NCBI GenBank assembly: GCA_022747635.1
Contig: JAKTNV010000004.1
Location: 22,108,469 to 22,172,468, forward strand
Direction: 5' to 3'
Origin: Hetaerina americana
Lineage: Eukaryota; Arthropoda; Insecta; Odonata; Calopterygidae
Length of the DNA stretch: 64,000 nucleotides
The first letter of the stretch is position 1. Each line of letters opens with the position of its first letter. The notes under the pieces were generated by a model. The model was not told the origin of the DNA. It ran no database searches and was given only the letters and a program-made list of their open reading frames with translations. The position numbers and the translations under genes were made by a program. Below are positions 25,496 to 59,540 of the stretch, in pieces.

Positions 25496-27978
25496 TAAAC
25501 TTAGTTTTAAATTTATTTTTCAAGACGGCTGATCATTTCATATTCCTTTGTTTTAAAATAGTCATTATATGTTTTCATGTCTAATTTTTCTCTGACACTC
25601 TTAGTGTTTAATTTTGTTTTCAAGGTTCTATTCAGCACAATATCAGAGGTAGAATATACTCACTCATGATCTTCTCCAAGAACTCCATCGGTTTATTTCC
25701 CTCCTGTAACCTAGTTGCGGCAATTGTCTCTCCAAAAAACGGAAACAGCAAAAAACGTCACTTTTTGATTTACATACTTTGATTTTTTTATTTGATTTTG
25801 ATTAACAATAGTTTTAATTAAACAATACACCTAATTGTAGGTATTTTAGATTTTAAATAGGCTGACTGTAGCATTTAAATCTAAACATGTCTTTCTCGAT
25901 TACAATTACAAATTAGGAACAACGAAATAAAAGTTTTTTTTTTAAAGTATTGGGAAGAAATTTATCCTGACGTGACTGCACGTTGCAGGCTCGATGGCGG
26001 GGGGTCTTACCATAAACACGCGCGGTCATTTTTTGCCCAGGTGTGATAATTAAGCGGTTATTACGTAGCATTGTGTTACCATGAAATTCCATAAAAATAT
26101 TAAATGACTCCGGAGTTACTGTTCAAATTTTGATAGACAAACTTGTAATAAAAGAAATTTAGGGAATAAATAAATCCATGAACAATAGAAAAGAGTAGTT
26201 TTCTAAAAACATAAAATATGTGTTGCTATTGAATTTTGCATCGACTTATGCTGTAAATACGCAAAATTAGAGTGTATTTTTTACGCAGGGGCTCAAGTTT
26301 ATTGTTTCACAAAGAGTATGCCATGAATATTATCCCTCATCAAGCTCAAACCTATGACAAGACGTGGTGGCTGACCTAAAGTAGCATGAGAGAGAACATT
26401 GAACTGGTCAGATTGAAGAACAAGACAATTACATGCGGCAAAATATTCCTGCATTGTAGACGAATTATTATGGAGCAAAACCAGAAATTCCCGGTGCTGG
26501 AGCTAATATCGCGACTATAGACCTATTTACCTCCGGTTCGTGGGTTAATGAGTCATCAAGAGACTTCCGCTAAGTTGGCCTACATGCGACCGCACTCAAC
26601 ATCCCGCTGCGCTACTCCGCGAAAATTTGTCAATGACTCTGCCCGCCATCTCCCGCATGGAGGAGAACAGAAAAAATAAAGACTCTGCTCGCCAAACATC
26701 GTAATATCGCACGGCTGCTCCATTGAGGGGTGGAGGGTTGCTGCAAACTTTGATAAATAGACCAATTAATGAAACAACTGCAAATTTTAGATATGGAATT
26801 AAAACCATTCCCTTTAGAACCTCTGAGATCGGTTAGAGATTGGTTTCTTGGAAATTTTATTCTCAATGGCTTCCGTACAATTTTCTCCTTTCCAAATCAT
26901 CTCTCATTCAATACTCTCCCATCTCTTTCCTACTCAACTTCATCGCTTCTATTCTCTCCCTCTCTCCACCCTCATATTCCCCCGCACTCCTACTTCCGCA
27001 CGCTACATTCATTTTCTTTCCCTTTCGCTAATTATTTATTTTTCGCCCGTCTCATACTCCCATCCTGTCTCCCTTCCAACCTCCAGCCTGCCTCCTCCCT
27101 TCTCTTAAACCTCATTACCGGCATTCCCCGTCGTTTCGCGAACATTGACCTCCTCCTTTCCCTCTCTCTCCATTCAATCCAAAAAGTGTCGGAAACAGCA
27201 CAAGCAAAATCTACCCGTTTTCATTTCCTGCCTTTAATGCAATGAAAACAGGGGAAATACTCGGAATGAAAAAAGGTTGGGAGGATGGGGGAAGGTGAGA
27301 TGAAATTATAGGGGCGACCTGTGATTTCTCTCTCTGCTTTTCTATTAGCGTTGGCGCGGAGCGGCCTCAATGATGGTCGGTAAATGCCCAATGGTAAAAC
27401 GATCATCGCGAATTAAAAGTGGGTTGGGTAAGCAAGTTGCGATGGGGATTCGTTGCCTCGCCGATGGGAACCCTTACTTGAGCCGTTAATTGGTCGTATC
27501 ATTCATTCAAAGGCACTTGGGCCTCTGTCGGACTGCTGAATACTGCGAAAGACCTATTTTTCAGATTTTTGAGCCGAAGAAAATATTTTCAATTTACTTA
27601 CCCTTTTCCAGCACAATCGAATTTGCTCTCTTTCTCTCTCTCTTGAGGCTGTTATTGGATGGTAAGAACGGGAGTTAATCGAGGAAATCGGATAAGTTCA
27701 TTGAGTAAACCTTGTAATTTAATGAGAAACGGTAGGGATTGAAGGGATTGATGATGAGATAATTCCATTTATATGCATACTTCATTATTTTGGTCTTTCA
27801 GATTATGGTTAACGACGAATCCTAACAATGATTACTGCAGCATTCAAACGAATTTTTATAGTATTTTTGGTAAAATACCAATAGATACGACTCACAAAAT
27901 GGGCTAATAATATTAACTTTTTTCAAGCAGATTCTTCAATTTGTTTCTATAATAGCATAAAATATTACTAAGTTACGA
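25496..27978. other. Unassigned DNA with a pyrimidine-rich tract
   Basis: No recognised gene or element. Between about 26880 and 27180 the plus strand is C/T-rich and opens several overlapping frames (up to 158 codons at 26769-27245) rich in Ser, Leu, Phe and Pro, as expected from composition. Confidence 0.4.
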
Positions 27979-28210
27979 TGAATAACTGATCGCAGCACTT
28001 TTCCACTTGATAAAAATTTTTATTTTACCATCTGGTTTCGAGGTATTACATCATAATCAGGTATGTCATTGACATGATGATGATGATGTAATACATCGGA
28101 ACGCAGTCGTAAAATAAAAAACGTTATCAAGTGGAAAAGTTCTAAGATCAGTTATTCTTTATTATGTTCGACTGCCACCATATTACGCCTGAAGCTACTC
28201 AATTTGTACA
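27979..28210 (+). mobile_element. Palindromic PLE-type insertion, copy 1 (232 bp)
   Basis: A near-palindrome (27980-28157, centre at about 28068) is followed by a non-palindromic tail containing attacgcctgaagc. A candidate 9-bp target duplication aagttacga flanks it (27970-27978 and 28211-28219). Each arm holds a decayed hammerhead-like motif pointing outward: minus strand 28031-28060 (box CUGAUUA) and plus strand from 28077 (box AUGAUGA, helix 28085-28089 with 28093-28097, then GGAA). The tail resembles those of the insertions at 49.0 and 58.7 kb. No coding capacity. Confidence 0.75.
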
Positions 28211-31200
28211 AAGTTACGACTTCAAATTTAACTATCAATTTACTATCAAAAAAGGAGAATCACCTAAAATATGAAAATTTACGAAGGATTCAACATATGC
28301 TGTTATTGTACAAATGTTGCAGAATTAAAGGTCTACTATATATGGTTTTTGGCGAATAACAAAGCGTAAATGTAAACTCACCATTATTTACCGTTTCAAC
28401 AGTATTCGAAAATAGTTATTGCAAAAATCATCTTAATTCTTCTTATGCCTTTCCACATACTTTCCACGCTAAGCCATCTAACATAAGTTGCCCAAAATAA
28501 AGACGACTATAAATCTCTAAACAAATTAAATAATTTTGGGACAATAACACATAAAACCTACAGCCATGTTGTGTATAACATGCTGATGTATCATATCTAA
28601 ACTACTTTCTTAGTTTGAGATTCCAGTTATACATTCTCCTATTTGTTATATTAATGAAATGTTTGTCAGTAATTATACCTGGAATATATTTTCTATGGAT
28701 ATAATATTTAATGGATATTTTCAATCAGAGTTACGTCATTTTAAGTGAAAAGATAGATGTCATGCATTTTATGGGTTACTTCCAATTTGATTTTATCCAA
28801 CTAAATTTTCATCAAATAGACATTGTACCTGTATTTGCATTAATGATCTTATCAATTGTATTGAGCGATTTGAAGGTGCTTGTTTAGAATTTTTAGTAAT
28901 ATGGCAAGATATGCGAGATTTTGAAATTAAATTTGACCTAAACTTTAGGCATCCAATAATTTCAGGAACAGAGGAAGTATTTAAGTCCGAAAATGATTGA
29001 AGAAATATCAAATTAGCCGAAGAAAATATCCTTCATTCTCGAACCGAGACCTTCTTACGTTGACTGAAATTTAAATACCAGTCAATACACGAGTTGCATT
29101 AGTAGTTTTCCGAAATCAACAAAAGTAGCCTGTACTCAGACCACGCCAAGGCGATCTGGGAGTCAGTCCTGTCGTGGTAACAGATGTATTATGAGGATTA
29201 CCATAGGAATGAGGACAGGCAAAAATTGCGAAAACTTTTATATAATTGTAACATTGTTGCATACAATACCCAACTCAATAGTATTTAGTCGAATCATCCG
29301 CAATGAAAAAAATAATTCAAATATTAAAAAATTGCAGATGTTTTTCCCTGATGGGGCAATATGGTAAAAAATAGACAAAATTTGACCTATAGAAGTAAAA
29401 AATATAGGACGGGAAAAAGTGAATGTAATTGGTGTTGTCGACACTGAGAAAATTAATACAATAAGTGTAATACTTACAAGAGATCAAAAGAATGATGCTT
29501 CCAAAATTCATCAAATCTCGTGGGTGAGTTTTGGATTATTGAAAATACCTTTTCAGAATAATGCCATTGGAAATTTTTGTTTCAGTTTTATTTACTGCCA
29601 AGGCCCATTCCATAATGTCACACCTTACATTACTTAATCTCTTGCAAATATTTAGCAAGTTTAATGTTAACACTGAGGGTTGGGGCTTATCGACTCAGAG
29701 ATTTTTAAAAGGTACCTTACGAAAGAGAATGATACACTTTATATTTCATAGCAAGTTAACCACCTATTAAAATTTTTTACAGATGAGGATTCACCGCTGC
29801 ATGCTGCGGTTAATTTATCGATGGTAACATTTACATGCAAGGATCACATCCAAAAAGTTTTTACGGAAACTGTGAGCTAAGTAGCCATTATCAAACGAGC
29901 TAACAACGCGATGTTACCAAATGTCAACTCAACCTACTAATGTAGCTGCTACAAGATATTCATTGATCAACGCAACCATTTCAACGTGTTATATTCTTCG
30001 TTATATTTTGGTCACTTAATAAAAATTACTATAAATATGCATATTGCTTTTTATAATCCATAGGGAATTGGCAACAATTTTTTTTAATTGTATACAAAAT
30101 ATCTTATTTCTCTTCCATGAAATCAATCCTTAACTTTTGATATTTGAATGGGCGTGTTTTCGTAAAAGAAGAACTTAAAATTAATATCTCCTAAGGCACA
30201 AGGGAATGGCAGTTCAGTTTCAAGCAATTGAAGTATTAAGATATACTCCGACAAATTTGCGTGAAGTGGTAATGCAATGGTAACGAGTAGGGTTAACTTA
30301 AATATTCATGTGGGGAGAAGATCTCCTTCCGTCAGTGCCGCAGGATTTCGAGAGAACTTTTGATCCCAAAACTATGGCAATTCGTTATCAACCGTGGAAT
30401 GGCACACACGCAAATGGCACCGCAACGACACCTATTACTAACTCACCACACCACAAGATTATAAATTTCACCCCATAAGCAAGTTTTTAATAGCATCCTC
30501 TTAAAATATTCATGGAATATAAAACTTTCCGTCCAAAACTTTCTTAGATGCCTCGCAGGAGAAGCGTGCTTTCGAAGAAGCCTTGGATTTCGTGGAAGGA
30601 GGAATAAAAATGCCTAAGTTCGCAAGACCAGCATCTGAATTTTTGACACGGCGCGTATGACGCAACCTGAAGTGTTATCTATCCTTCTTACTTCCAAAGC
30701 GACCCTTGAGTTCTATTCAAATTCTGCCTATTTTTTTGACAAAGGTCTTCCATGCATGAAAAATGTCTCTAGAGTTTTCGCTCGCACATAATTGTCAATC
30801 ATAAAGGAAAGGTTCTTTGCTCAATGTGCTCTATTAATGATATATTACGTACGCCAGATTAAAAAGTTTCCGTAAAAACTTTCTTGAATCATTTAACTGT
30901 CCTTTGTTGTGTACATACATGTGTAATGCGAGATACTAGTAGATAATTTTTATCTTTAGGAATTTTTGCCATTATTGCAGCACATCAAATATTCAACCCC
31001 TTAGAATAATCATAAAACCACTGTTATTGAGCAAGCGTACACCCATATTAGAGCATAAAAATATCAATGGATTTTATGAATCAATCAAGCAAACCTTCAC
31101 TGAACGAAATCAGAATTCTTGTTATATAATAAAATGCTCTGAGCTGACAATTCGGGACTACTGCCATCCAAAGTCATTAGTTTAAAGCTGAGGTGGCTGA

Positions 31201-33539
31201 TAATATGTATAGATGTTTATTAATTATTATTATTATAGGTATCTACTGTTTAAGGTAGCTTGCTGATGGACACAAGCGACCCAATGGTACTACGAAAATT
31301 CTCTTGTCTCTCTTCAAAAAACATAACCCGAAATTCAACCTGACAATAAGCCCCTCTTCAATTTATACATTGATAGTGATTACAGATTCCATTAGCCATC
31401 ACAATACAGCTTTCAATGAATATGAAAGTGGATACTTAGGTAGTTAAACTTTTTATACACTCTTAGAAGCAAATAAATACATGCTAACAGTAAATGAGGC
31501 TTACATTTTTCGACGTGACGAGCATGATTTTTTTGTTGAAGAAAGTATTTCTGAGATAACTCAAGCTCTGCATCTATTATATATTCTTTGATGGCATTTG
31601 AATTCGGGAATAATGCTTGCTGAGAATGCAAGCAACGGCATAGTGATTGAAATTTATCTTAACAATATATTCCCTAAAATACAAAAACTTTGAAGCGTAC
31701 TTTATGAAATAGAGGCGGCACACTTATACTTTATTTTTAAACACAGCAAAAGTGTATTTACAAATTAGCCACAGTGTCATCTACTTTGAGTTCAAATTAT
31801 TTTACATTTAAATATTTATTAAACAAGAGATCTTGAACAACTTTCCTTTGTTTCATATTAACCTTGTTAAAGAGAATTTATGAACATTTATGCAATTTTT
31901 AAAAGTACGAGAACTTAGTGCGTGCAAAAATATGAATTAAATTACGAATTGAGTAGCGCCACTGCATATATTCTCATCGATTTGCAAATAAGACTAGTGA
32001 TCTTAAAAATTCAATTGAAAGATTTGTTAAAGCCCCCTACCTTCTTCTACCAAAAATGACGCAAAAGGGAAGAGTTGATCGAGTCTAAACAAGAATATAG
32101 AAATATTTCCCAGTGAACAATAACGATATCTTATTTCATTGATTACATTTCTTGATACGTTGATTTGTTCTTATGCTTTGAAGAAGGAGGGACATAATAA
32201 TGATTTACTGTTCAATTTTTTAAATAAACACCCTAATATGCTGAAAATGGGTCATTAGCGGTTGCAGGCTTGTTATAAGTAGACTTTTGTTTGCTCCTTA
32301 CAATTACATTTACATTACAGTTTCTTTCAGTGAATTACAGTTTCTTTCGGCCTAAGCCGATAAAGATGTCTCTCGAGATTATTCATGCATTTTTCCTCCT
32401 TCGATTCGCTCAAAATACCTTCTCTCTTCTTTCTAACTTCCTACTTACCTGACATTTGCACTATGACAACTCTAACGTTTCCCCTTCTAATATCTCCTCA
32501 ATCAACTTTTCCTGTCCTCTTCAAATTTAATCCAAAAATCTCTTCTCGTCCCTCGGCATTTTAAAAATTCTGTTCTCTTTCCAACATTTAAAATCCATTA
32601 ATCAAAGATGATCCTATTTCCTCAACTAACTTATGAAGGCATATAATTATTTTGTCTACGTACAAAGCAACACTACTCTTTCGTGGGAAGAAGGTACCAA
32701 AAGTAAAATATTCTACACCTGACTGCGCTCAACTATGAGTTGCATAGTAAGAGATACAAAAGTAAATGAATAATAATTTAACTGGCATAACTTGAAGTTG
32801 AAATGATATTAGATTACTACTGTCTTGAAAGGTTTTAAATTATTCACTTTAGTTATCCTTGGGCTAAACCCAGAGAATTTTGCTTTGACGAGAAATATTC
32901 TCATGGATAAATAAAACCGGTTGTTTTACCCACTGAAAATGCTTTCAATTATTTCTTCTGAATAATTCATTTTAAATAACCTTTTTAAACAGTATTACAA
33001 GGCACATTGGCGAAAATTCACATTTCGTTTTTCCGTTGATTTTTTTCAAAGTTTCGTCTTACCTAAAGTTGAGGGCTATCCCATCCTTTCGGAGTTCATT
33101 AATAATATTTTCTTCCCACAACTTTCAATGATTGGTTTATTATAATTTAAAGCGATCAGAGAAAGCTAAATTGATCTCAGTATTTTTTGCTGTAACTTTT
33201 CCTTCTTAAAACGTTAATTGTCCTCCTCGATATAATATTTAACGATATGATATGAAAAGCGTATTTTAAAGTTATAACCATCACCGAAATAAGGTGTCTG
33301 CAAATGAGCACGCGAACTAATTTCTGATTAATATTATGCACAGGGTGTATATCTATATCGATTTAATTATGTTGATCTGTTAAACGTAGTCCTGCATATA
33401 CTTTCGTGAGGCATGATGTCTTTTAATTTACATATCGGTTTAAATAAGTGACCAATTAAGAATAAATGTTTCATAACCTCTCAAAAATTTTAATACATTT
33501 TGACTTCAAAAGAAGAAGTTTTAGTATGAATACACAATA
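28211..33539. other. Unassigned AT-rich DNA
   Basis: No recognised gene. At 32313-32348 the block attacagtttctttc occurs twice about 21 bases apart, next to a small cggc/gccg hairpin; its origin is unknown. Other frames are short and without motifs. Confidence 0.45.
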
Positions 33540-34455: not shown

Positions 34456-34457
34456 TA

Positions 34458-35210
34458 CGAGGGTCATCCGGAAAGTAGTACCCGTTCGTGAAATAAAGAC
34501 ACAAAAGTAAATATTAACAAACATAAAAAATTTTATTTGAAAGAGGATACTTTAAACTACTTCTCAACATAATCTCCAAGCAAATTAAGGCATTTGTCAT
34601 AACGTGTGACAAGTTTCTGTATTCCTGCTGCATAGTCCTTCGCCGCCAGCTCATTGAGATACGCGAGGGACCCATCTTGCACAAATTTTTGCATAATGCA
34701 GATGGTGTTTAACAATTTCATGAACAATTGTTCGAGAAACATTGGGAAAATGCTCACAGATGTCATCAATTGTGACGCGCCGATCGTTCCTCACGAATTC
34801 GTCAACTGAGCTCACCAGTTGGTCTGTAATGACAGACGGTCTCTCCGAACGCTCATCGTCGTGTGTGTTCCCCCTCCCCATGTTGAAGTTGCGACACCAC
34901 CGCCGAACAGACGACTCGTCCATTACATTGTCTCCATACACCTCCTTTAATTGGCGATGAATATCACATGGGCGAACGTTTCTTGCATTGAGGAATTTAA
35001 TCACTGCCCTCACTTCACAACTGGCGGCGTTCTCAATTTTTTTAAACATTGTAAACAATCACAGAAACAACACAGGCAATTCTAGCGTCACGCAACTTGG
35101 CCCAGAGAAGGCAGACAAGCCACTGAAGCTATCTGACCTCGTCCAGCAGCTACTCGCGTCGTCAGCACTTCATGCGGCACGAACGGGTACTACCTTCCGG
35201 ATGACCCTCG
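34458..35210 (-). mobile_element. Internally deleted sister of the intact mariner (753 bp)
   Basis: Same family as 3971-5304. It has 33-bp terminal repeats (one mismatch in the right one) and TA duplications at 34456-34457 and 35211-35212. Alignment by eye shows one clean 581-bp deletion that joins the equivalents of 4175 and 4757, with no microhomology at the junction. Elsewhere only four substitutions separate the copies, all in the leader or right terminal repeat, which implies recent common origin. With both ends intact it should be mobilisable by transposase made elsewhere. Confidence 0.96.
34651..35058 (-). pseudogene. Mariner transposase fragment: DNA-binding half only
   Basis: An open frame of 135 codons whose first 132 residues are identical to the intact transposase up to WVPR, followed by three new residues and a stop created by the 581-bp deletion (not a multiple of three). 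It keeps the whole helix-turn-helix region and loses all three catalytic aspartates. The old C-terminal codons (YLNELAAKDYAAG to GDYVEK) survive out of frame near 34557-34660. If expressed, it could bind transposon ends without cutting; this is inference. Confidence 0.9.
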
Positions 35211-35212
35211 TA

Positions 35213-37822: not shown

Positions 37823-37825
37823 ACA

Positions 37826-38348: not shown

Positions 38349-38397
<49 letters not shown>
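38349..38397. repeat. (TA)n microsatellite
   Basis: A TA array directly left of the palindrome at 38398. A stretch just before it (38295-38347) resembles, in inverted orientation, the tgtgagtgtcctttctttgt block of the palindrome. Confidence 0.95.
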
Positions 38398-38401
<4 letters not shown>

Positions 38402-38591
38402 ACGGATGTAGATTTTTAGAGTATAGAGACACAAAGAAAGGACACTCAAAATTTGTTATTTGACGTTTCGACAGCACGGCTGTCGTCTTCAGACAGTCTG
38501 AAAACGACAGCGTGCTGTCGAAACGTCAAATAACAAATTGTGAGTGTCCTTTCTTTGTGTCTCTATATTCTAAAAATCTACATCTGTGTTT
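38398..38591. mobile_element. Palindromic PLE-type element between TA arrays
   Basis: Arms 38398-38478 and 38511-38591 are reverse complements over 81 bp with a few mismatches, and the central 32 bases continue the symmetry with a one-base offset. A hammerhead-like motif lies in each half, pointing outward. The sequence right of the arms (to about 38635) includes the complement of the left part of the 8.4-kb copy. TA arrays on both sides hide any target duplication. Confidence 0.8.
38462..38492 (-). ncRNA. Hammerhead-like motif, best conserved core
   Basis: On the minus strand: box CUGAAGA (38486-38492), one extra C, a perfect 6-bp helix (38479-38484 with 38470-38475) with a 3-base loop, GAAA (38466-38469) and CGUC (38462-38465). 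All conserved core positions are present apart from the extra base before helix II. Helix III is minimal, as in hammerheads thought to work as dimers. The partner on the plus strand (38498-38527) has box CUGAAAA and is damaged. Confidence 0.55.
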
Positions 38592-38632
38592 TTATATATT
38601 TGTGCGTCGCCGAAGAGCGTTCCATTTCGAAG

Positions 38633-38635
<3 letters not shown>

Positions 38636-38694
<59 letters not shown>
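38636..38694. repeat. (TA)n microsatellite
   Basis: A TA array to the right of the palindromic element. Confidence 0.95.
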
Positions 38695-44085: not shown

Positions 44086-44720
44086 ATACTATGGGAAAAA
44101 TCAACCCCAGTCGTACTCTTAATAGTGGGCAAAGAGTATGAATAGGGGAATTAGAGAGAAATAATAAGTAAAAATAAATTAAAAAAGGAAATGATAAAGG
44201 GGGTTTAAACAGAACGAAAGATTTCACCAAATTACGGCTACAAAAACGCTCTGGCTAAGGTGTACTAGATATCACTGACCCTTGCCCTTATCAAGACTGC
44301 ACTCCGACTGAGCTGCGAGAGATTTGTCCATGCGCCAGTGGCCCACCAATCACTCCCTTCCTTGGGTATGTGTAAACGACTTAACCCTTGCAAATCTCAT
44401 TCATGGAAACAGGTCTTCGGTGGAATCTCTTCCGAAGTTAGTCCTGTAACTCGCACTTTGGGAAAGGTAAGGGAGGTGCCCAGAAACTGACAACAGTGTT
44501 TCGACTGCCAAGCAGTCCTCTTCAGAGAAGGAATGGTGCCATCTCGTGTAAGATGTCGTATATATACTAGGTGTATTGTAACGGTCAAAGGTAGCGGGAG
44601 GAGGAGTTGTTGGGAAATGTCGCGCGGAAGGGGAAGATATGGGCAATGGTTATGGTGGAAAGGAAGGGGGCTGGGGTTTGAAGCCGTTGCGCGGATTATT
44701 GTCAAATAAATACAATGTAA
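44086..44720 (-). repeat. PLE 1 pseudo-LTR, downstream copy
   Basis: The part 44086-44348 is a direct repeat of 47154-47459 with the same orientation. Shared blocks are atcaacccca, the (c)gctctggctaaggtg region, tatcaag, gcgagagattt and tgcgccag.ggcccacc. Together they bracket the PLE 1 coding region, as the terminal repeats of PLEs do. The remaining part to about 44720 has a hammerhead-like motif and a GC-richer tail. The right limit is approximate. Confidence 0.75.
44489..44525 (-). ncRNA. Hammerhead-like motif in PLE pseudo-LTR
   Basis: On the minus strand: box CUGAAGA (44519-44525), one extra G, a perfect 6-bp helix II around a UUG loop (44503-44517), GAAA, then a 3-bp helix III (ACA/UGU) with a 4-base loop and a final C (44489). 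Helix I cannot be drawn beyond 2 bp. Confidence 0.5.
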
Positions 44721-47153
44721 GCCTTGTCATTAATGGTGATTATTTTGAGGTGGGTAATTCTGGTGTTTCGCTAGGGAGGGTAGGGATGATAAGATAGGGC
44801 CCTGGTCATGGTTCATGAGTTAATTTTTGAAGCAGTGGCCGTGGATGCTTTCATGGTAGTCCAATAAGCGGTTTGGTTCTGTGCTAATGAGTTTTAAATT
44901 TTTCAAAGCAATTCCATGTGTTTGTTGATGCACTTATTGCGCAACTGCCGATCTTTCAGTATAAACTAATCCGTAGCAAGCCATGTGTTCATTAAATCGT
45001 GTGAGAATATTTCTACATGTTTGTCAAATATACGACTGGTCACATTAGGGACAACTTATCTCGGATATGCCTGATTTTTTGGGTAAATCAATGGGATCTT
45101 TTGGGTTTCTTATAAGTGTTTTGAGTTTGTTGTTGGCGACGAATATAGGTGTTCTACCATATGTTTTGAAAATCAGAGCGAGTCCTTTAGACAGTGTGGG
45201 GTGGAAAGGTAATTTAAGTTATTTCTTTTCATCAGTGGGTAAATATTTGTGCCGTCTTGAATTAGTTTTTTATGTTTTTGTTTCTTGAGTATCTTATCGA
45301 TGATGTTTCGGTTGTAGCCATTTAGAGCGGCGGTTCATTTTATATAATCCAATTCTGATAGAAATTTTGCTTTGCTCAATTGGACGTTAACAAGTCTATG
45401 GACTAGGAAATGTAAAGCCGCGTATTTAAGTGAATTATTTTCAAAAGATGACTGATGTACATATATGTAGTCGTTTGTGCGTGTGGAATTTCTGTAAATG
45501 TCGAAGGAAAGTTCATCTGTAATAGTCCAGTTTTCTCTGTTATCTCGGAACGGGATAGATTAATTGGTTTCTATTTCACGCGTGAAGTTAAAGGTAGCGT
45601 ATTGGCTATTGAGTTTTTCCAAAATATGTGCAAGAGGGGCTTGGTTGGTATCAAAAGTTGCAAAAACATCATCGAAGTATCTTAGCCAAGTGACGGGGAT
45701 ATAGCCCATAGTGGCTTTACAGTTACCTTCAAATTTGGTCATGAACAGGTTCGTAAGAAAACAGGAAAATGAATTGCTCATTGTAGCACCCATTTTTTGC
45801 TTGTATACCTTTTTGTTGAGAATTAAGTAGTTCTGATTCATTTCCAGATTTTTCAATAGCACATAGTACTCTTCAAAATTTTGCTGGGGATATGTTTGGA
45901 ATGGAGCCAATTTTCCAAGAAGGTTATTGTGTCTGGGATAAGAACACTAGGGAATAAGGACTCGACATCAAAGGAAACTATGTTACCGGAAATTCTAGTT
46001 TGATGTCTTTGACAATATGAATAAACTCGAGGCTGTTTTTAACATTCAACTTACTCTGGAATCGAATGTTGGCGAACTGTTGAGTGAGTCATTGCAAAAT
46101 ATTGTATGTGGGAGAGATGATCGCGGAAACGATGGGACGCATTGGACAATCTTTTTTGTGTACCTTGAGAATACCATAAGACGTGGGAGGATTGGATTAA
46201 ATGTGGCCAGTTTAAACTAAAGTGCCTTGTCGAAAAAGAGCTTTCAAAATGCGATTACGGATTTTGTATCTTGAACCATTTTGTTGACTGGATTTTTACA
46301 GAGATTGGTGTACGGTCCATTCTCAATGAGAGTGTTCATTTTTTGAGAGTAGGTGTCCTTGCAAATAATTACACATGTATTTCCTTTATCAGACTTTAAG
46401 TAAAAGCAATCGTGGGTTCGTAGGGAGCGTATAAATGTGAAGTAGAAGGAATCCGTATTTTTGTTGAGTTGGATTTAGGTAAGGTTGGAATTGATGACGC
46501 TTTCGAAGTTTTGACGGACTTGGGGTTTTGAATCGATGTCCTGGAATTAAATGGAATGTTCTATCTGGGAAATAAGGACTTTTACTGGTAAGCTGTTCGG
46601 ACAGATGTTGAAATTGATTCCGCGATTCAATAGAGGTTATTCATTTTTCGAAAAATTGTAGGTGGCCATGTTGATGACAAACTGAAAAGAGTTTCACCGG
46701 GAGAAGTAAATTCCTCATTTTGACAATTTTTCTTGGACTACTCTAGAATGGCAATGATTTTTTATGATATTTATGCTTTGTTACAACATGCACTTTCCTT
46801 TCAAATTCCAGCCAATTTGGAAATTCCCGGTTGTTAAGCACTTTTGTTACTTTCAAGTTTAGTTGGTAGCATTCCAGTTCTATTTTGGCTCTTTTTGAGT
46901 AGGGGGAATGGATTTCCAACCAAGAATCAGTAACTTAAACTTAGCATCGTATCATTTGATTTAATTCTTAAAAGTTTTTGCTGAAGCGATTAATTTTGGC
47001 AGAATATCAAATTTTATGGCAAAGTTTGAAGAAAGGTTACATATAAGAAAATCAAGCTGATGTTAGTTTTGAGACGATGAAAGCAATTCCGTTCTGTTGA
47101 ATTGGAAGTTAGACTATGATTAAAAAGGAACTTAACTAACTATGGCCGTATGA
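44721..47153 (-). pseudogene. Penelope-like element 1: RT plus GIY-YIG endonuclease, degenerate
   Basis: Almost complete PLE protein in broken frames on the minus strand. In order: LNRGINFNICP (about 46629-46597), LKSDKGNTCVII (near 46395), [19 protein letters not shown] (46180-46123), RT motif A FDVESLFPSV (45980-45949), motif B GATMSNSFSCFLTNLFM (45791-45740), motif C WLRYFDDVF (45685-45664, both aspartates kept), thumb segments SFDIYRNSTRTNDY and AALNGYNRNIIDKILKK, then a cysteine pair SCPxC and the GIY-YIG-type QTCRNILTRFNEHM (about 45025-44980). The longest open piece is 45560-45910. Stops and frameshifts interrupt it. PLEs copy themselves with this RT and prime at a nick made by the endonuclease. 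Confidence 0.88.
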
Positions 47154-47228: not shown

Positions 47229-47263
<35 letters not shown>

Positions 47264-47572: not shown

Positions 47573-47974
47573 AAATTTTAATTCACAAAGATAATTTTAA
47601 TATCATAGTTGTGAGTATCGGATATGGCAATCCATGCATCTTAAACACAGCAGGGGAGTAACTGTATTCTCGCTTGAAGGTATTTTGAAAACGGATCATG
47701 AAAATATTGGCCAAGAACCGGGATGGAGAGTTACCCATAGATGGGCCAAATTCCTATTCGTATAATTTACCTTGAGCAACGAAGAAAGGATGGTTCACGA
47801 ATAAGTTTGTTAGTCTGGCGTATTCGTGAATAAATGTGTCCTCGAGATTTACAGAAATCCACCAATTCTCAAATTAATCAAGGGCTATGTCAACCCGTAC
47901 ATTTAAGAATAAACTTGATACATCGAAATATACCATAAATCCTCCTTTTACATCTAAGCATACATAATATTGCA

Positions 47975-48070: not shown

Positions 48071-49012
48071 CACCATAAGATAAATTTATGGATTTCAGTT
48101 TCGTAAATGAAATCCAACATTTTTTTAGTCAAATGGTAGCTTGGAAAATTTAAGTTAGTGGATTGAATCACAAGCCAATTGAACACGAGATAAATGAAAG
48201 GGTTGCTCCCGAAAACTATGGGTCTCGTATGACAGCCGTTTTTGTGTTTTTAGGTAGGCAATAAAATAAAAAAGGCAATAAAAATGGTAATACCGGATCG
48301 GACACTGAAAATGTAAATTCAGTCGTCTTATCAATTAGGCGGGGCAATGATTACAATTTCAAAAACACTTTGTGTAATGTAGGTAATTGAGAACATTTAT
48401 AAGGGAGCGTGAGTGACTAATTTGTTGAGGGCTTTTTCAAATTTTTATTTCTATATATTGCCCTGATTATGCAAGTAGTTTTTTTCTCGTAAATATTATA
48501 CAAATAGTGCCTTTATCCACTTTCATATGAAAGCAATTATAGAGTTTGAAAGAAATACGATACAATTAAAGTTGGTTTTTCTATTAAATCTCGGAGGGAT
48601 GTTGAAATAATTCTGATTATTGCTAATCTGCTTATCACAAGGTCTACAAACAATTCTATGGTGGAATTATCAAATAGTCTGATGGAACCATCTATGCGGG
48701 CGATTATATCCTCCATGTTGCTAGATTTTGGTTGCATAATAACGTTGAAACCATAATTAAGTAATTTTAATTCTTGAGGAGCGAAATTCCATCAGAAAAC
48801 TTACAAGCATTAGTTAAATCACTCTTGTCAACACTAGAAAAATGGCACTCACCGAATAGCTTAAAAAATTTACGATTGATACAAATTCATTTGGAACACT
48901 GAGTGGATTCTCCTGTCAGTTTCTAGCAAAATCTGAAAACCTTGGTCTGATAAGTTTTTTGCAAGTTTAAAATGCAATTTGTAAATTAATAATTCTAAAT
49001 AACGTCTTATAG

Positions 49013-49224
49013 TTTGAAATGTAATGAAATAATTGACTTTGTAATTCCACACACTTTATTTAAAAACACACGACCCAGGTTTCGACGTTGAACGTCATCA
49101 TCTGGGTCTGGGGAAACCTGGGTCGTGTGTTTTTAAATAAAGTGTGTGGAATTACAAAGTCAATTATTTCATTACATTTCAATATGTTATGCAAATTCCA
49201 CAAAGTTACGCCTGAGACAACAAA
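49013..49224 (+). mobile_element. Palindromic PLE-type insertion, copy 2 (212 bp)
   Basis: Two perfect 70-bp inverted arms (49014-49083 and 49113-49182) with a 29-base centre, then a tail with ccacaaagttacgcctgaga. A 12-bp target duplication aacgtcttatag flanks it (49001-49012 and 49225-49236). On the minus strand a hammerhead-like motif (49072-49104) spans the left arm end and centre: box CAGAUGA, an extra U, a 5-bp helix, GAAA, a 3-bp helix III and a final C. Its mirror copy is incomplete. The perfect arms suggest a young insertion. It sits in the 5' part of PLE 3. Confidence 0.85.
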
Positions 49225-49300
49225 AACGTCTTATAGCATAAAGGGAGACTCCGATGAGCATGGAACATTAATTATAATAGACTCGTCAATCTGGGGATTT

Positions 49301-51294: not shown

Positions 51295-51620
51295 AATACT
51301 ACGGTGACAAAGGTACTGGCTTTCCTGACCAAGGGATTGGGTTCGAATCCCCGTGGTTAGTCTTAACTCTACTTCGGGTGCCATGTTAAGAGAGCCTTAG
51401 TTGAGTACGGCCCCCATTGAATGGGGTGTTAAATTGTGGACCACTCGGCACCTTAAATTAATAGTAGGCCAATGCCGACGCCAGGTTTCTCTCAACCCTT
51501 CATCCATTCTCTGAATATCCTAACCTTACCATATTACCCTCTATCCCTTCTAGCGCATATTACCTCTGTTGTCAGTCGACTTCCCCAAAAACTGCTACTG
51601 CCTCGTATTTGATGGAGATG
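51295..51620 (+). mobile_element. tRNA-derived SINE
   Basis: A perfect Pol III box B, ggttcgaatcc (51340-51350), sits in a tRNA-like T-arm (GGG/CCC stem). It is preceded by a tRNA-like 5' half with no clear box A and followed by a non-tRNA body with repeated C/T-rich blocks. Its tail resembles that of the SINE-like sequence at 61.5 kb. The ends are approximate. Confidence 0.6.
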
Positions 51621-53492
51621 AAAGGTTTTCCTTATCTGTACTCTTTAAGAAAAACTAATTTTTCCACATTAAATACATATATGAGCTAAAATTCATTTTG
51701 ATATTTTGTTGATTTCCGATAGAGTGCACAAAAACGCCTAACAATTCAATTTTATCATCTGATGTTTGTCTAATAACTCGTGTACAAAGAGCGATGGACC
51801 TGTATTTTGAGGCCCCTGGTACTACCGAATTTTTTACAGCTCAATTATCACCTCTCTCATGTTTATCTAACAAGGATATGAAATATTCCAAACAAATTTT
51901 TGGAAATATTTGCATATTCTTGGTTAAACACAATGATGATAAATTATTTATCTAAAATTTACAACATTGTACCAAAAAATCACATTCTATTGAATTACTT
52001 CTCATACAAGCGTATATCGTTTAGAATATTCGGTGGGCACTTATTAACGGTCATCGCAGTTTGAATAATTGGGAGGTTTTGGATAAAGGATGCTTTTAGC
52101 GATATGTTATTTAAAACCATATGCATAGAGCAGTCAACGCTTAGACTGCCAAAACAGCGAATGTGCAAAAGATGTTATTTTTGGCTTGTGGAAATAACGC
52201 ATTGTAAATGAATTATGAGGTGATCCATTTATAAAAGGAGTGGAGAGTGAATTTAATCAAAACTTTTGCCGCGTAATTACTCTGTTATTACCTATTTAAT
52301 AGAGGACTGAAACTTCTTCTGAAGCATTGGATACATTACGGTATCCATTCTGATACGGTATAAATTTTCCATGCCAAAAATTATGCTCATAATCAATCAG
52401 TGAATAAAATTTCATTCCAAATAGAATTGATAAAATTGATTTTTTAAAGTAAAAAATGTCTTTAAAATAATGCGTAGTACATCGAAACTTGTAACAATGA
52501 AAAACGATAAAACATTTCAATTTCAATGTTAACAAAATACATATCCACATGTTATTGATTTCTTATTGACCTCAATTCCCATTCCAAAATCTCTTGCATA
52601 TGGAAAAAAGCGGAAAATCATGATAAAAGGGTGGTTACTAGAGGTGACTTTAGGCTACTGAGTTAGTGGTTAGGTTTTTGTTACTTTTGCATTTTAAGAA
52701 TAATTTTGTTTGGTTTACTAATAAATCTTTAAAAAATAATTCTATATAATTTCATGTTTTTAACATAATAGTAAATAGGAGGGTAATCATTAGCCTTAAA
52801 TATATTTGAATTTATAAATGTATATATACCTTTTAATAATAAACTTTGAGATGTTTGTCTCCAAGATATTTTTAGATTTAATTGTATTTCTAATTGATTT
52901 TAAAATTGTTTGAATAAGAGAAGTTGATTGTTTTAAATATAACCGCACTTTATTTCCATAGTTATTATCCTCATAACAATACTCTACGTAGTTTATTCAC
53001 TGTTTACTTTTTTAATCAAGATAAATCGCATTAAATTTTAAATCAAGATATTCCCGAGGACATATTATCCACATTTCATATCACTAATGGCCGAAGCGGA
53101 ACTGTAATAAACATAGCGCTTTTAAGGCTAATATTTATTTATATTGTTTTTTAATCTTAGATTTCATTAAGTTTAATGAAAATTAAAAGTATTGCTTTAT
53201 GAAGTACGAATAACTGAGTAAGCTTATTTATATTACTGGCGTTCAATTTCTCCTTCGTATAAAATCTCGTTCAAAATCATTTTTTCAAATGTTGCATTGA
53301 TATTAATATGTCTTTATATTAAATGAAATGTAGAAATTTTACTAAAGAAATAAGGCTTTGCACGTTGTTCTTTTTTTAATTAGCATCATCAGCCTTTTAA
53401 TTCTTCTCTTTTCAGTGTTAATTCTGTCACCCATTGTTTGACGTCTTTCTGAATTTTTCCTATGGACTTGTCTCTTCTCGATTACTCTCGAT
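51621..53492. other. Unassigned AT-rich DNA
   Basis: No recognised feature. Confidence 0.45.
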
Positions 53493-54548
53493 GAATCGAG
53501 AGGAATATAGAACACAACCAGGAGGTATTTGCCTGTTTCGTTTATTTCGAAAAAGCGTTTCATAGAGTGAATTGGGAAAAAGTAATGAGTATATTGCAGA
53601 AAATTGGAATAGATTGGAGGGAAAGGAGGCTAATCAGCAACCTGTACATGTCTCAGACTGCTCAGGTGCGAGTGGTGAGCGGGCCCATTATCACCGTTGC
53701 TGTTCAACTTGTATGCAGAGGAAATGATTACAGAGGCATGGGAAGAACAGGAGGTAGGAATGAATGTGGGTGGGGTATTCGTAAAATCAGTTAGGTTTGC
53801 TGATGGCCAAGCTTTAGTTCGTCAGTCAGCCAAGGGGTTGCAAGCATTGCTGAGTGAATTGGAAATTCAGTGCGACAGGTATGGGATGAGAATCAATATT
53901 AATAAAACAAAGGTCATGCGATTTTCTAGAAAGAAAGCAGGTAGAACAGTTTATGTATCTCTGTAGTGTCTTGGACCAACACGGTCAAAGTAGTAGGGAC
54001 GTAAGGAGAAGAATTGCGCTAGGCAAAGAGACTTTCACAAGGAGGAGGGAATTGATGACAGGGACGTTGAGTAAGGAGTTTAAGAAAAGACTCGTAAAAA
54101 CTTTGATATGGAGCTATGTACGGCGCGGAAACGTGGTCATTGAAGCAGGAGGATAGACGTAGACTGGAGGCTTTTGAAATGTGGGTGTGAAGAAGAATGG
54201 AGAAAGTGAACTGGACAGAGAAGAAAAAAAAGAGGAAATACTTGGCATGATAAGCCAAGAGAGGGGTTTGTTGGGAGCAATCCTATTGAGGCAGGAAAAG
54301 TGGATGATGGGGGTATTGACCGGCAGCAGGATGTTGAAAACTGTAATTGAAGGGAGAATGTTAGGCAAACGAGGAAAGGGAAGGAACAGGATAGGGATGT
54401 TGGACGGGATGAAGGGAGGAAGGAAGTAGTCAGAGTTGAAGAGGGACCTGATGTAGAGTAGGATGTTGTGTTTTGCTAGGGGTCACAAATTATTTAATTA
54501 GAAATTATGTCAATCCAAAAACCTACCTTAACCGGTAGATTACCTAAT
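53493..54548 (+). pseudogene. LINE copy: RT domain to 3' end, with short deletions
   Basis: 5'-truncated non-LTR retrotransposon on the plus strand, colinear with 62465-63550. It reads FRKSVS, VNWEKVMSILQKIGIDW, MSQTAQVRV, then (after loss of about 44 bp including the GRGVRQSCPL motif) LFNLYAEEMITEAW, VRFADGQALVRQ (motif C, see findings) and YGMRININKTKVM. A second loss of about 41 bp follows, then LCSVLDQHGQSSRDVRRRIALGKETF, FKKRLVKTLIWS and, in later frames, MISQERGLLGAILLRQEKW and GRNRIGMLDGMKGGR. The two small deletions and stops make it non-functional. It ends with the family's accttaaccggtagattac tail. RTE-like by general appearance; the clade is not certain. Confidence 0.85.
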
Positions 54549-54559
54549 AATAACTTGTC

Positions 54560-55570
54560 TCTTGCTCTTGCTCGCGGAATCTTCTCTTCTATTTTCCCTC
54601 CTATTATGTTCTCAACTTATCTATTATGCCTTCACATATTATGCTCCACATAACCTATTATGGCTGAATCCATATAGTTCTCCTTTGACATAGGGTTCTC
54701 CATATAGCCCGTTCCTCATAGGCTCATCTATACACTTCTTCGATCCTCACTATTTACGTATACCCATTTAATCTTCAACACTCTCCTCCAGAATCATGTT
54801 TCAAAGGCTTCTATTAGACACACGTCCTCTTTGCCACAGTTTCATTCCTATGCACTTGTACAGTGGAACTCCATACAAAATTTTTGCCTCGTTGACTAGA
54901 ACCCAATAGTTGTCATATCTTGTACTATCATAATAGTTGTCTCTCCATCAAGGGACCCTTCTTTTCTTGAACTATATTTCACTTGATGTTGATCCAACTT
55001 TTTCCATCCAAAGTTATAATGCTACCTATGAAGATAAATAATTCCATCTGATCTATTTTAACTTCTCATTTTTTTTACATTTGCCTTCAGTTGCTCTCTT
55101 CTTCACACAAAGACTAATTTTTTCCTGTTAAGTTTTATATTTAAGTCCTGAAGTACAACGTCCATAGCATTTGAATTTATTTCAAAATCTGCTCGCATTT
55201 TCGTGATTACTGGTATGCCATCTGCAAACTGCATGTCATTGCTTCCTTATTCACCTTGACTCCTTTGATGCCCAATGTTTATTATTTTTATATCACCTCT
55301 TCTAGACAAACGCATGAATTTTGTTGTCAGAGGTTGAATCCTTGTGTAACTCCTTTGTTTATTTTATGTTTCTATTTCGCTCCGTTTTTTATTTACAAGG
55401 TTGCTATCTGATTCTTGCAGATTGATTCATTATTCTTCAGTCATCGTAGTCCATCATCCAAGTTTCTTAGAAAATCTTGTTCCATTCAACGTTGTAGAAG
55501 GCCTTCTCGAATTACCCGAGTATCACATTTAGTGGCTTGTTTATATGCACTAGGTTTTGGGTTAGAACCC
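54560..55570 (-). pseudogene. Second LINE family, RT relic
   Basis: The minus strand holds degenerate RT pieces: FEKAFYNVEWNKIF (motif A region, about 55520-55480), a KGVTQGFNL-type motif B near 55350, MQFADGIPVITKMRADFE (motif C, 55234-55180) followed by NAMDVVLQDLNIKLNRKK, with stops between. The protein differs from the neighbouring LINE, so it is another family or an older subfamily. C-terminal pieces become unreadable toward 54560. Confidence 0.6.
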
Positions 55571-55779
55571 ATAAGCTGAGTATTACGTTCCTCAACCATA
55601 TCAGTATGTTTTAATTAAAAAATAAATTTATTGAAAATACATGGGTGTCAACTTAATTTACAGAGCCATATCTCTCAGCGAAATACAAAAAGGTAATTAA
55701 AATAAGTAGTTTGAGTAATTTAATGATATCACAGTAATAGTAGGAAATCCAGAAAAGCTAGATGTTCATTTTGCATTGA
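55571..55779. other. Unassigned AT-rich DNA
   Basis: Nothing recognised. Confidence 0.4.
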
Positions 55780-56284
55780 GTGAATTGTACTTAAGGGATA
55801 TAAGAAAATGATCAAAATAAAGAGGACTATGCTAAAGAGGGAATACTATATATAGGAAGATATTTAAGTAAAGGATGAGATATTAGAGTAAGTAGAATCT
55901 CTCACCTACCTCGGCAATACCATAGCATAAGAGAAATATTATGTGCAAAATAGCTCTGGTTGAAAAGATGTCAGCCTAGTGATATTCTATCGTCAAAGAA
56001 TGTAAGTTCACACACAAGAAATTTGAAATGTTTGAAAATATTGGTAAAAAGGTTGGATAGCATTCTATGAATTGCAGACGTTGGAAAAAAATACCTGATA
56101 CGAGGGACATTGGAGAAATACACAAAATAAAAAAAAAACAATGTGGAAAAAATGGTATGAGATAAGCAAAATAGTTTAGGTGCAGTTTGAAATAGGATTG
56201 CTTGGAAAATATTAAAAAGATTCCCACGAAGAAGAATAATGAACACGTGTGCAGATCAAGTAAAATGGGGTGAATAACGGAAGG
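55780..56284 (+). pseudogene. Possible LINE C-terminal relic
   Basis: On the plus strand VESLTYLGNTIA (about 55890-55925) resembles the FxYLGSxIT motif that follows the RT domain in RTE-like LINEs, with a purine-rich, stop-filled continuation. The mariner at 56287 begins at its end, so the mariner may have landed in it. Confidence 0.35.
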
Positions 56285-56286
56285 TA

Positions 56287-57620
56287 CTACCTTGATCAAA
56301 AAGTTCCCGGAATTTATTCAGAAAATTAAAAATACAAGTTTATTCATCTAAATCTATATTGTCCCCTTCAAAGTAATCCCCATCGACTGCAACACACTTA
56401 TGCCAGCGCTTGATCCAATCCTCGAAACATTTTTTATATTCGGTTTTCGGTATGTCCATCAGTGCTTCCTGCGATTTTTCCATTACTTCCTCTCGGCTGC
56501 TAAAACGCGTTCCCCGTAATGGTTTTTTAACTCGATTGAACAGAAAGAAGTCACAGGGAGCCAAATCAGGTGAATTCGGTGGCTGTTGGATGGTATTTGT
56601 TGCATTTTTCGTCAAAAAATTACGAATAATGATAGCACTGTGCGACGGTGCGTTATCATGGTGCAAAATCCACGAGTTTTCTGCCCACATTTCTGGTCTC
56701 TTTCGGCGAATTGCTTCACGCAAACGTCTCATAACGCCCAAATAATACTCTTTGTTTACTGTCTGGCCTTCTGGCAAAAATTCATGATGCACTACACCGT
56801 TGTAATCCATGAAAACCGTCAGCATTGCCTTCTTTTTTGACTGAAAACGACGTGGTTTTTTTGGTCTCGGCTCATTTGGTGAACGCCATTCACTTGCCTG
56901 ATGTCTGGATTGCGTGTCGTACTCATAAACCCACGTCTCGTCTCCAGTAATGATCCTTTTGATGAATGTGGGATCGGATTCAGCCTCGCAAATCATGTCT
57001 TTTGCGACGTCAACACGGTCTCTTTTTTTGCATGAAATTGAGGTCTTTTGGCACCAACTTTGCTGCTACACGACGGAAACCCAAATCATTAACCACAATG
57101 TCTTGGGCGGATCCATAGGCAATGTTCAAGTCCTCCGCTATTTCTCTGATGGTTAATTTGCGGTTATTGACCAACATTTCTTTTACTTTATCAATTTTTT
57201 CACCGACTTTCGATGTCGATGGTCTGCCACTGCGTTCATCATCTTCGATTGACTCACGACCACTTCTGAACCGCTCGTGCCACTGGTAAACGACCGTTTT
57301 TTTTAGAGAATCGTTGCCGAAACACTTTTCCAACATTTCCAACGTCCGTGCGCCACTAAATCCGTTTTTTACGCAAAATTTAATACAAGTTCGTTGTTGC
57401 AAATTTAAATCCATTTCTGCAATTGTAAAAAATCGCCAACACACACAGAGATAGATGTACTCTTGGCTACTTAACTTTTGCAAATGTCAAGTTATGACAC
57501 TAAGATTTAAAGGGAATATCAACAACAGATGTACCAATTTAACAAAAAAAAACAGAACTCAAATCGGAACGATGGGAGCGCCACACGGTGGTTATTCCGG
57601 GAACTTTTTGATCAAGGTAG
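56287..57620 (-). mobile_element. Mariner transposon, second family, complete ends
   Basis: A 1334-bp element with perfect 27-bp terminal inverted repeats (56287-56313 and 57594-57620, starting ctaccttgatcaaaaagttc) and TA duplications (56285-56286 and 57621-57622). It carries one minus-strand transposase gene broken by a single frameshift. The ends and protein differ from those of the mariner at 3971, so two unrelated mariner lineages have near-complete copies in this window. Confidence 0.93.
56340..57414 (-). pseudogene. Mariner transposase, one frameshift
   Basis: N-terminal part: the likely start is the Met at 57414 (MDLNLQQRTCIKFCV); the frame is open upstream to 57483 but the family starts here. 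The helix-turn-helix region (VVYQWHERFRSGRESIEDDE) runs to VPKDLNFMQKK. There a run of seven A on the minus strand (57023-57029) shifts the frame; one base fewer would restore it. The C-terminal part (from 56996) has TGDETW, HHDNAPSHS and SPDLAPCDFF with 34 residues between the last two aspartates, and WIKRWHKCVAVDGDYFEGDN at the end. Otherwise no stop. This is either a real inactivation or an assembly error in a homopolymer. Confidence 0.92.
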
Positions 57621-57622
57621 TA

Positions 57623-58572
57623 TATCAGGATGATCGGGATTAGCATTAAAAGTGCAGATTATAGGGCTAAAATCCATCCACCAATCTTTGGATCAAAACA
57701 CAGGTGGTAGGAATACAATAAATTTAAATTTTGGTGGGATCAATTAGTTTCATTATCATGATCCCCTTTGAAGCTGCAGTCTTATACTAAAAACTCATTG
57801 ATACTTAAATGCAACGACGCATTGTTTCCTTTAATGGTCGAAAGGCACTTTGGCTTTGTATTTTTATGCTTGAATTATCTCTACCGCTGGACTATTGAAC
57901 CGTTACTCGCAACGAAAATCAAAGCCATGCATAATACCACTAATGAATACCTTCACTGGCGGTGAGTTTATGCATTAAAGTCTCTCCAACAGGCATTTCA
58001 AATGAGCATAGGTGGCAAATGAGTGGACGCGGCTACCTTAACAAGAAGGTTTGCGGGATGGAACATTTTCTAATACCCTATTCGTAATCAAAGCAAGCGG
58101 TTGTAATCAAACAAACGCATTTGATGTTTTTGGGTGCTGCGGCTGGGAGGGCAGGATTATGTACTATTAGTCTGATTTGCGGGATAAATTCACGCCGGGA
58201 CGCAAGTAATCCTACGATGTTTGACTGTCCTCCGCTTTCCATCAATCAATGCTTTATCCTCAAATATTTACGATTGGAAGGCTAAAAAATGTCCACCTAG
58301 GATTAGAGGAAAAGGGAAAAGATTACCACGCGAAGGAAAATACCATTTACGCAAACTTGAAAAATATTTCAGAGAAAATGTGAGTGATTTTGACATGCAG
58401 AGAAATACATTGGATTCTTATCTTTGCCACTGAATTTGAACAATGTTTACATGGGGGTTATTAGCCACCTCTTTCATTTAGAATACATTTAGAAGACATT
58501 TTATCATTTGACTAATGTAAATAACATCTTCGGGTGAAATAATTCGAGTTTTTAATTTTTGGTGCATATATA
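57623..58572. other. Unassigned DNA
   Basis: No recognised feature. Confidence 0.45.
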
Positions 58573-59540
58573 GACAGCATTAATAAAACAAAGTTATGCG
58601 ATTTTCCAAAAAGAAAAAGGCTAAGCTAAACATTAAAATTGGAAGGCAAAAACTAGAGCAGGTAGAACAGTTTACGTATCTCGGTTGTAACTTAGGCAAA
58701 ATAATATTATCTTTGCTTTCTACAGAATAAACTTTATTCGTCGACTAGTTTCGTTTACACTGTAACATCATCAGGACTAGTGACTCACTAGTCCTGATGA
58801 TGTTACAGTGTAAACGAAACTAGTCGACGAATAAAGTTTATTTTGTAGAAAGCAAAGATAATATTATTTTTCCTAAGTTAAAAATGGAATTCTACAAAGT
58901 TAAGGCCTCAACCATTCAGTGTATCTCGGTAGTGTTTTGGACCAACACGGTCAAAGCAGTAGGGACGTAAGGAGAAGAATTGCGCTAGGCAGAGAGGCTT
59001 TCACAAGGCGGAGGAAGTTGATGACAGGGACTTTGAGTAAGGATGTTAAGAAAAGACTCGTAAAAACTTTGGTATGGAGCGTAGCTATGTACGGCGCGGA
59101 AACGTGGTTATTAAAGTAGGAGGATAGACGTAGACTGGAGGCTTTTGAAATGTGGGTGTGGAGAAGAATAAAGAAGGTGAAATGGACGGACAAGAAAACA
59201 AATGAGGAAGTACATGGTATGGTGAACGAAGAGAGAGGTTTATTGAGAGAAATCCTATGGAAGCAGTAAACATGCATGATGGGCGAATTGACTGGCAATG
59301 GGATGCTAAAAACTGAAATAGAGGGGAAAATATTGGGCAAACGATGAAAGGGCTGGAACAGGATAGGGATGTTAAACGGGATGAAGGGAGGAAGGAAGTA
59401 GTCAGAGATGAGGAGGAACCTGATGTTAAGTAGGTTACTGGATTGAATTTTGTTTTGTTAGGAGTCACAAAATATTTATTTGGTACTTGTGTCCATTCAA
59501 AAACCTACCTTAAGCAGTAGATTACCTTATAATAATAGTA
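58573..59540 (+). pseudogene. LINE 3' copy split by a palindromic insertion
   Basis: 5'-truncated LINE of the same family as 53493-54548. It starts at the NKTKVMRFSKK region, runs to VYLGS and is interrupted at 58686-58920. It then continues with LGSVLDQHGQSSRDVRRR, FTRRRKLMTGTLSKDVKKR and LVKTLVWSVAMYGAETW, where a stop replaces the next glutamine, then broken frames to the 3' tail (accttaagcagtagattac). Not coding. Confidence 0.85.
58686..58920 (+). mobile_element. Palindromic PLE-type insertion, copy 3 (235 bp)
   Basis: Inserted in the LINE, with a 10-bp target duplication gtatctcggt (58676-58685 and 58921-58930). The core is a 191-bp palindrome (58689-58879) centred on base 58784; the two 95-bp arms differ at two positions. 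Each arm has a hammerhead-like motif facing outward: plus 58794-58825 (box CUGAUGA, extra U, helix with a bulge, GAAA, CUAGUC) and minus 58743-58774. A tail with ggaattctacaaagttaagg follows. Because the LINE reading resumes exactly after the duplication, the element boundaries are certain. Confidence 0.93.

Follow-up and report, generated by a model that had tools for sequence, protein, structure and literature searches.

One-tailed palindromic insertions in Hetaerina americana as probable scars of Penelope-like element insertion

A stretch of 64,000 nucleotides of the Hetaerina americana genome (contig JAKTNV010000004.1, positions 22,108,469 to 22,172,468; hereafter the window) contains short palindromic insertions which, judged from their sequences, derive from Penelope-like elements (PLEs). 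Their two inverted arms meet head to head near a predicted hammerhead ribozyme motif, and one arm is prolonged by a short tail. Each palindrome is probably the scar of one PLE insertion, in which both cut target strands primed on the 5' end of one RNA. The insertions at 28.0, 49.0 and 58.7 kb had been reported in the first-pass annotation, a model's reading of the letters made without database searches, and were found where it had placed them, with their tails. A palindrome scan outside (AT)n repeats returned five palindromes, comprising these three, 38390-38599 and 14333-14432. The insertions and one asymmetric relative are as follows.

48998-49236, forward strand: 49.0-kb insertion; target duplications 49001-49012 and 49225-49236, tailless arm 49013-49083, centre 49084-49112 (in which the hammerhead box of the tailed arm is lost), tailed arm 49113-49182, tail 49183-49224.
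58676-58933, forward strand: 58.7-kb insertion; target duplications 58676-58688 and 58921-58933, tailless arm 58689-58783, centre 58784, tailed arm 58785-58883, tail 58884-58920.
27966-28219, forward strand: 28.0-kb insertion; target duplications 27966-27978 and 28207-28219, arms 27980-28059 and 28078-28157, tail 28158-28206, hammerhead box mutated.
38390-38638, forward strand: 38.4-kb insertion; arms 38390-38478 and 38511-38599, tail to about 38638; it sits in an (AT)n repeat, where a target duplication is indistinguishable.
38465-38492, reverse strand: hammerhead motif of the 38.4-kb insertion.
14263-14443, reverse strand: 14.3-kb insertion; target duplications 14263-14274 and 14432-14443 (12 bp, exact), tail about 14275-14332 (likeness judged by eye), arms 14333-14379 and 14386-14432, which end before reaching any hammerhead.
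8407-8530, forward strand: 8.4-kb asymmetric relative of the 38.4-kb family (likeness judged by eye); a short inverted tail piece (about 8407-8435) is immediately followed by a hammerhead unit that lacks a tail (motif 8439-8466).

The arms are 100% complementary in the 49.0-kb copy (49014-49083 versus 49113-49182), 97% in the 58.7-kb copy (58685-58783 versus 58785-58883) and 83% in the 28.0-kb copy (27980-28059 versus 28078-28157), which by this measure is older. Target duplications of 9, 12 and 10 bp had been claimed for the insertions at 28.0, 49.0 and 58.7 kb. Duplications are indeed present, but with one mismatch allowed their lengths are 13, 12 (exact) and 13 bp, and thus less variable.

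The PLE origin put forward in the first-pass annotation is borne out by a coding copy, L031 (contig C1, 1164400-1174399), which has arm and tail in common with the palindromes. Its reverse transcriptase (RT) piece matches RVT_1 (E = 5.7e-10) and has 199 relatives; 5 of the 120 listed carry RVT_1, PF26215 and GIY-YIG in one protein, and the named hosts among those listed are nearly all animals. A GIY-YIG-like piece, in another frame than the RT, gave E = 0.011 and 16.4 bits as an excerpt, below the Pfam cut-off of 22.6, and at full length matched no family at E ≤ 0.01. The coding pieces are followed by a pseudo-long terminal repeat (pLTR), the last 135 nt of which are 98.5% identical to the tailed arm at 58.7 kb. 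This link to a coding copy was established for the 58.7-kb family, while the 49.0-kb family is known from full pLTRs with a TATA box. The separate non-autonomous class that had been supposed is not needed, as the arms match the expected 5' end of a PLE transcript and no special short RNA is required.

The palindromes form a recurring class, as had been suggested. The genome (1.63 Gb) was searched with exact patterns, after a similarity search with arm and tail alone had returned no match, probably because their words are too common. The pattern CTGANGA-N4-25-GAAAC gave 64,492 matches, against 12,723 for the reversed pattern. Head-to-head pairs (GTTTC-N12-25-TCNTCAG-N0-30-CTGANGA) gave 9,000 matches against 35 for the reversed control; this corresponds to about 4,500 or more places, since an intact palindrome can match on both strands. 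Judged from 100 listed rows, these pairs span many families. The 49.0-kb tailed arm has 972 exact matches. As lower bounds, being derived from exact patterns, 133 palindromes with two intact boxes and 292 with short arms were counted in the 49.0-kb family, and 28 with intact boxes and 8 with short arms in the 58.7-kb family. One tandem derivative does exist: locus L141 (contig C2, about 16.8238-16.8284 Mb) consists of 326-bp units with a TATA box, a hammerhead core and a tail, six on one strand and nine on the other, meeting head to head.

The outer ends of the arms are fixed. In 30 copies of the 49.0-kb family and in 20 copies of the 58.7-kb family, the tailless arms share a single end point, beyond which the tailed arm extends by about 37-42 nt. 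These sets are query-biased, because the window copies served as queries and scoring covered 40 of 958 and 40 of 404 candidates. Two further sets of the 49.0-kb family, 59 loci, were drawn without the centre as query. The tail-picked set is taken from the exact tail-arm matches on contig C1: of the first 41 in the list, 39 were used, and two were omitted as palindromes that had been scored before. The centre-picked set comprises 20 short-arm palindromes. Twelve of them are all those on contigs C1 and C2 with no exact counterpart in the tail list, and the other 8 lie on C2 beyond the reach of that list. Exactly one tail was found at 59 of 59 loci (threshold, at least 28 of 41 letters): every centre-picked copy has exactly one (20/20), and a second was seen at none of the 39 tail-picked loci. 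For the other 17 of the 29 short-arm palindromes within the range of the tail list, the lists show a single exact tail close by. At 13 of the 39 tail-picked loci a tailless arm was not scored; six of these are full pLTRs leaving the fetched stretch (L103, L107, L111, L114, L129 and L139), and the others are L104 (with a short one by eye), L106, L108, L116, L122, L127 and L132. At L116, the 5' end of the unit adjoins foreign sequence that terminates in about 23 A, apparently the trace of a jump by the enzyme to a polyadenylated RNA template.

Target duplications, scored at 45 of the 59 loci, measured 12 bp in 20, 11-13 bp in 34 and at least 8 bp in 39, while flanks of different copies reached at least 8 bp in 3.1% of comparisons. 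The copies thus carry the target duplications of a PLE insertion, in which the target-primed step is presumed. According to the first-pass annotation, copies that did not share arms or tails with full-length PLEs, or that had Tc1/hAT-like termini and fixed-length duplications, would be ordinary miniature inverted-repeat transposable elements (MITEs). These refuting outcomes are only half borne out: arms and tails are shared with a PLE, but the duplication is nearly fixed at about 12 bp. The 58.7-kb palindrome and L031 adjoin similar flanks, apparently of one family of long interspersed nuclear elements, possibly by chance and possibly through target preference.

The two arms of a palindrome resemble each other more than they resemble the arms of other copies. 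They differ at 0.61 positions per 36 nt within a copy and at 0.90 between copies (66 copies of 89 loci), and none of 20,000 permutations gave a value as low. Nine variants are common to both arms, against 0.61 expected, and 40 are private. The class of the inner arm end also agrees between the arms in 24 of 26 pairs (8 near TATA+30, that is, 30 nt after the TATA box, and 16 at a second point); one pair is mixed and one long.

The centres, by contrast with the outer ends, vary. There are 23 distinct centres among 28 palindromes of the 58.7-kb family and 30 among the 50 listed (of 133) in the 49.0-kb family. No filler separates the arms in 26 of these 50, and simple joins recur. Among fillers of at least 8 nt, 14 of 19 (shuffled mean 2.2) and 18 of 23 (shuffled mean 4.2) include 7 nt or more that match the unit; they look like products of templated end joining, an activity known of polymerase theta. 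Neither arm consistently reaches further into the centre: of 26 pairs, 12 have a longer tailless arm, 10 a longer tailed arm and 4 arms of equal reach. A difference of at least 4 nt favours the tailless arm in seven pairs, including two odd ones, L135 (214-nt insert) and L137 (internal deletion), and the tailed arm in two. In the 30 query-biased pairs the tailless arm is longer in 24, the tailed arm in 5, and one pair is equal.

The position of the centre follows the promoter. The TATA box lies at -33 from the hammerhead box in the 49.0-kb pLTR and at -37 in L031. Counted from their own TATA box, in palindromes with both hammerhead boxes intact, 77 of 100 arms of the 49.0-kb family end at +30, +31 or +32 (21, 38 and 18 arms) and 18 more at +33, the hammerhead box itself; in the 58.7-kb family, 37 of 56 end at +29, +30 or +31 (16, 16 and 5). 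The distance to the hammerhead box differs between the families, mostly -3 to 0 in the former and -8/-7 in the latter, so that neither the constant centre-to-box distance nor the hammerhead-set geometry of the first-pass annotation holds; in both families the centre tracks the TATA box. We infer that the centre marks the 5' end of the RNA, with TATA+30 taken as the transcription start. Among 36 hammerhead sites, which are partly non-independent, 12 have a TATA box at -35 to -41; one more, in an AT repeat, was left uncounted. None was seen at the 11 palindromic sites (8 flagged, plus L033, L037 and L048 from the head-to-head list).

A second class of arm ends falls at positions 46-52, which is 14-20 nt past the predicted hammerhead cut (at 32/33) and shortly before a stem that arm and tail may form. 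Similar in appearance are the 14.3-kb copy and eight palindromes of the 58.7-kb family. The candidate stem is UGUGGAAUU/AAUUCCACA, UGUAGAA/UUCUACA or UGUGGAACU/GGUUCCAUA in three families, with paired changes; it was picked by eye, without a control, and most other compared sites lack a stem at that place. Our guess is that this class represents cleaved RNA trimmed up to a bound stem. Hammerhead cleavage as the source of the RNA 5' end was rejected, given that one class of ends includes the core and the other lies past the predicted cut. The motif AATAAA occurs just 3' of this cut in the units of both the 49.0- and 58.7-kb families, beside the second class of ends.

The strict motif CTGANGA-N4-25-GAAAC occurs five times in the window, at 8439 (+), 38465 (-), 44498 (-) and in both arms of the 58.7-kb copy, against a shuffled mean of 0.62, and none of 100 shuffles reached five. 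The hammerhead-like boxes that had been described at the centres are present in the class, where cores do lie at the centre, whereas the 28.0- and 49.0-kb copies lack the strict motif, their boxes being mutated or missing.

These observations are probably explained as follows. The nuclease of the element would cut the two target strands with a stagger of about 12 bp. Reverse transcription would be primed at start site 1 by one of the target 3' ends and at site 2, which lies about 40 nt 3' of the first, by the other; the sequence between the two sites would become the tail. Both cDNAs would run through the hammerhead core towards the 5' end of the RNA, which in one class of copies would be the transcription start about 30 nt after the TATA box of the pLTR. 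A head-to-head palindrome would result once the two cDNA ends are fused, either across minimal or no microhomology or by way of arm-templated fillers. Both arms would stem from one RNA molecule, used by a double enzyme with one start per strand, and the joining would be polymerase-theta-like.

Several observations weigh against this proposal. The shared variants fit one RNA read twice but prove only a single source sequence, and subfamily structure could contribute to them. The purified PLE protein of Anolis carolinensis (Poseidon; PAc) has start sites that do not differ between the strands in vitro in the experiments consulted (PMC11167929), and the use of one site per strand is what we infer here. 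Because the count of ends from the TATA box was limited to palindromes with both hammerhead boxes intact, it could not register ends that lie downstream of the box. Of the 36 hammerhead sites, 12 non-palindromic ones have no TATA box in the scanned stretch. The second class of ends is the commoner in the 49.0-kb family (292 versus 133 palindromes with intact boxes), and a transcription start does not account for it. Finally, an Rfam scan of the window returned no hammerhead family among 44 matches at E ≤ 5, so that the label rests on the motif and the literature, and single-sequence folds of the putative hammerhead were no better than those of shuffles.

The first-pass annotation had instead read the palindromes as snap-back products, in which a cDNA started in the tail is extended to the 5' end of the RNA, then folds over and serves as primer and template for a second copy of its arm; self-priming might also start from an antisense template. 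This predicts palindromes at the inverted junction and variants common to both arms, and self-priming is the interpretation given for rotifer Penelope elements in the available text of PMC3846280. It nevertheless seems unlikely here. A copied arm cannot exceed its template, yet the tailless arm is often the longer one; a fixed tailless outer end would require the copy to stop identically each time; each insertion has one tail; and at 8.4 kb the tail piece lies on the arm away from the full unit. Still less likely is priming of the two strands on two independent RNAs, with either start site taken at random, although extension of both strands does occur in vitro according to the portion of PMC11167929 consulted. 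Random use of the sites predicts two-tailed and tailless palindromes, of which none was found among 20, and the arms share rare variants as well as their end class.

A further alternative is a foldback element or MITE that propagates itself and is mobile in palindromic form. It would fit the high copy number, the inverted symmetry and the nearly fixed target duplication, but we regard it as highly improbable. The symmetry is broken by the one-sided tail, so the termini are not symmetric; the centres differ, although more than half of those listed lack a filler and simple joins recur; and the palindrome unit is also found at the end of a PLE-type coding copy and of full, TATA-bearing pLTRs. Two-strand priming on one RNA, our preferred explanation, may be part of a wider, PLE-specific insertion mode, to which we give slightly less than an even chance. 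A double ribonucleoprotein on one RNA would use two fixed start sites, one per strand, the RNA 5' end would lie 2-8 nt before the core, and host end joining would complete the product. One-tail palindromes would arise when priming uses the start sites closest to the 5' end of the RNA; a longer RNA, handled in the same way, would yield complete elements with inverted pLTRs, and RNAs trimmed at the 5' end up to the arm-tail stem would yield the commoner short palindromes. The lack of a strand difference in start site in vitro, as far as the cited text goes, lowers this chance.

Parts of this picture are already in print, separately, namely inverted pLTRs, tails and two-strand priming. According to the text available, PLEs of Adineta vaga have inverted pLTRs with palindromes at their junction, an optional 31-bp tail on one inverted pLTR, target duplications of 8-10 bp, and a TATA box with an initiator-like TCACT in the pLTR (PMC3846280). 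The H. americana insertions resemble them in their inverted pLTR-derived arms, one-sided tail and, in full pLTRs, a TATA box. In A. vaga, as described there, the pLTRs mostly flank an open reading frame (ORF) or captured sequence, and self-priming was proposed (PMC3846280), whereas here ORF-less head-to-head pairs are abundant, the duplication is about 12 bp and priming on both strands is favoured. The consulted part of the PAc study reports that the purified protein cuts and extends both strands and starts internally at two adjacent sites, that the tail lies between these sites, and that the hammerhead cut falls 26 bp after the start codon (PMC11167929). Likewise, the hammerhead core of the 49.0-kb family contains an ATG that precedes the predicted cut by 26 nt and starts a reading frame running through the unit. 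That part of the study describes no palindromic genomic products, joining step or strand asymmetry of start sites (PMC11167929). Metazoan retrozymes are described, in the text consulted, as head-to-tail tandem canonical type I ribozymes with circular RNA intermediates, and share with our insertions the form of short ORF-less hammerhead repeats and genomes that also hold PLEs with minimal hammerheads (PMC7229834). The array at L141 recalls them; the solo palindromes are, unlike them, single head-to-head pairs, and tandem units were found only at L141, in two opposed blocks. ORF-less palindromic PLE products and their rules were not found in the open-licence PMC literature with the terms tried.

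These products bear on the mode of PLE insertion and on the frequent inverted terminal repeats with an optional tail. Thousands of minimal products in one genome yield quantitative rules: a single tail, fixed start points, arm ends near TATA+30 and centres formed by end joining. These rules are consistent with the in-vitro findings and go beyond them. If the proposed transcription start is correct, a few nucleotides of transcript precede the hammerhead core and stem I is cut short; this would suggest why the ribozymes look minimal, and they may need read-through or tandem RNA.

The window also contains PLE remains and other coding sequences.

44498-45946, reverse strand: PLE remains with an RT fragment at 45563-45946 (RVT_1, E = 0.00097, below the Pfam cut-off); downstream of it on the same strand, a hammerhead motif at 44498-44525 with a TATA box 41 nt upstream.
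47643-47843, reverse strand: a second, broken PLE-like RT stretch, close to 45563-45946.
4070-5152, 34651-35058 and 56340-57486 (-): ORFs that by their look we take to be mariner-type transposases.

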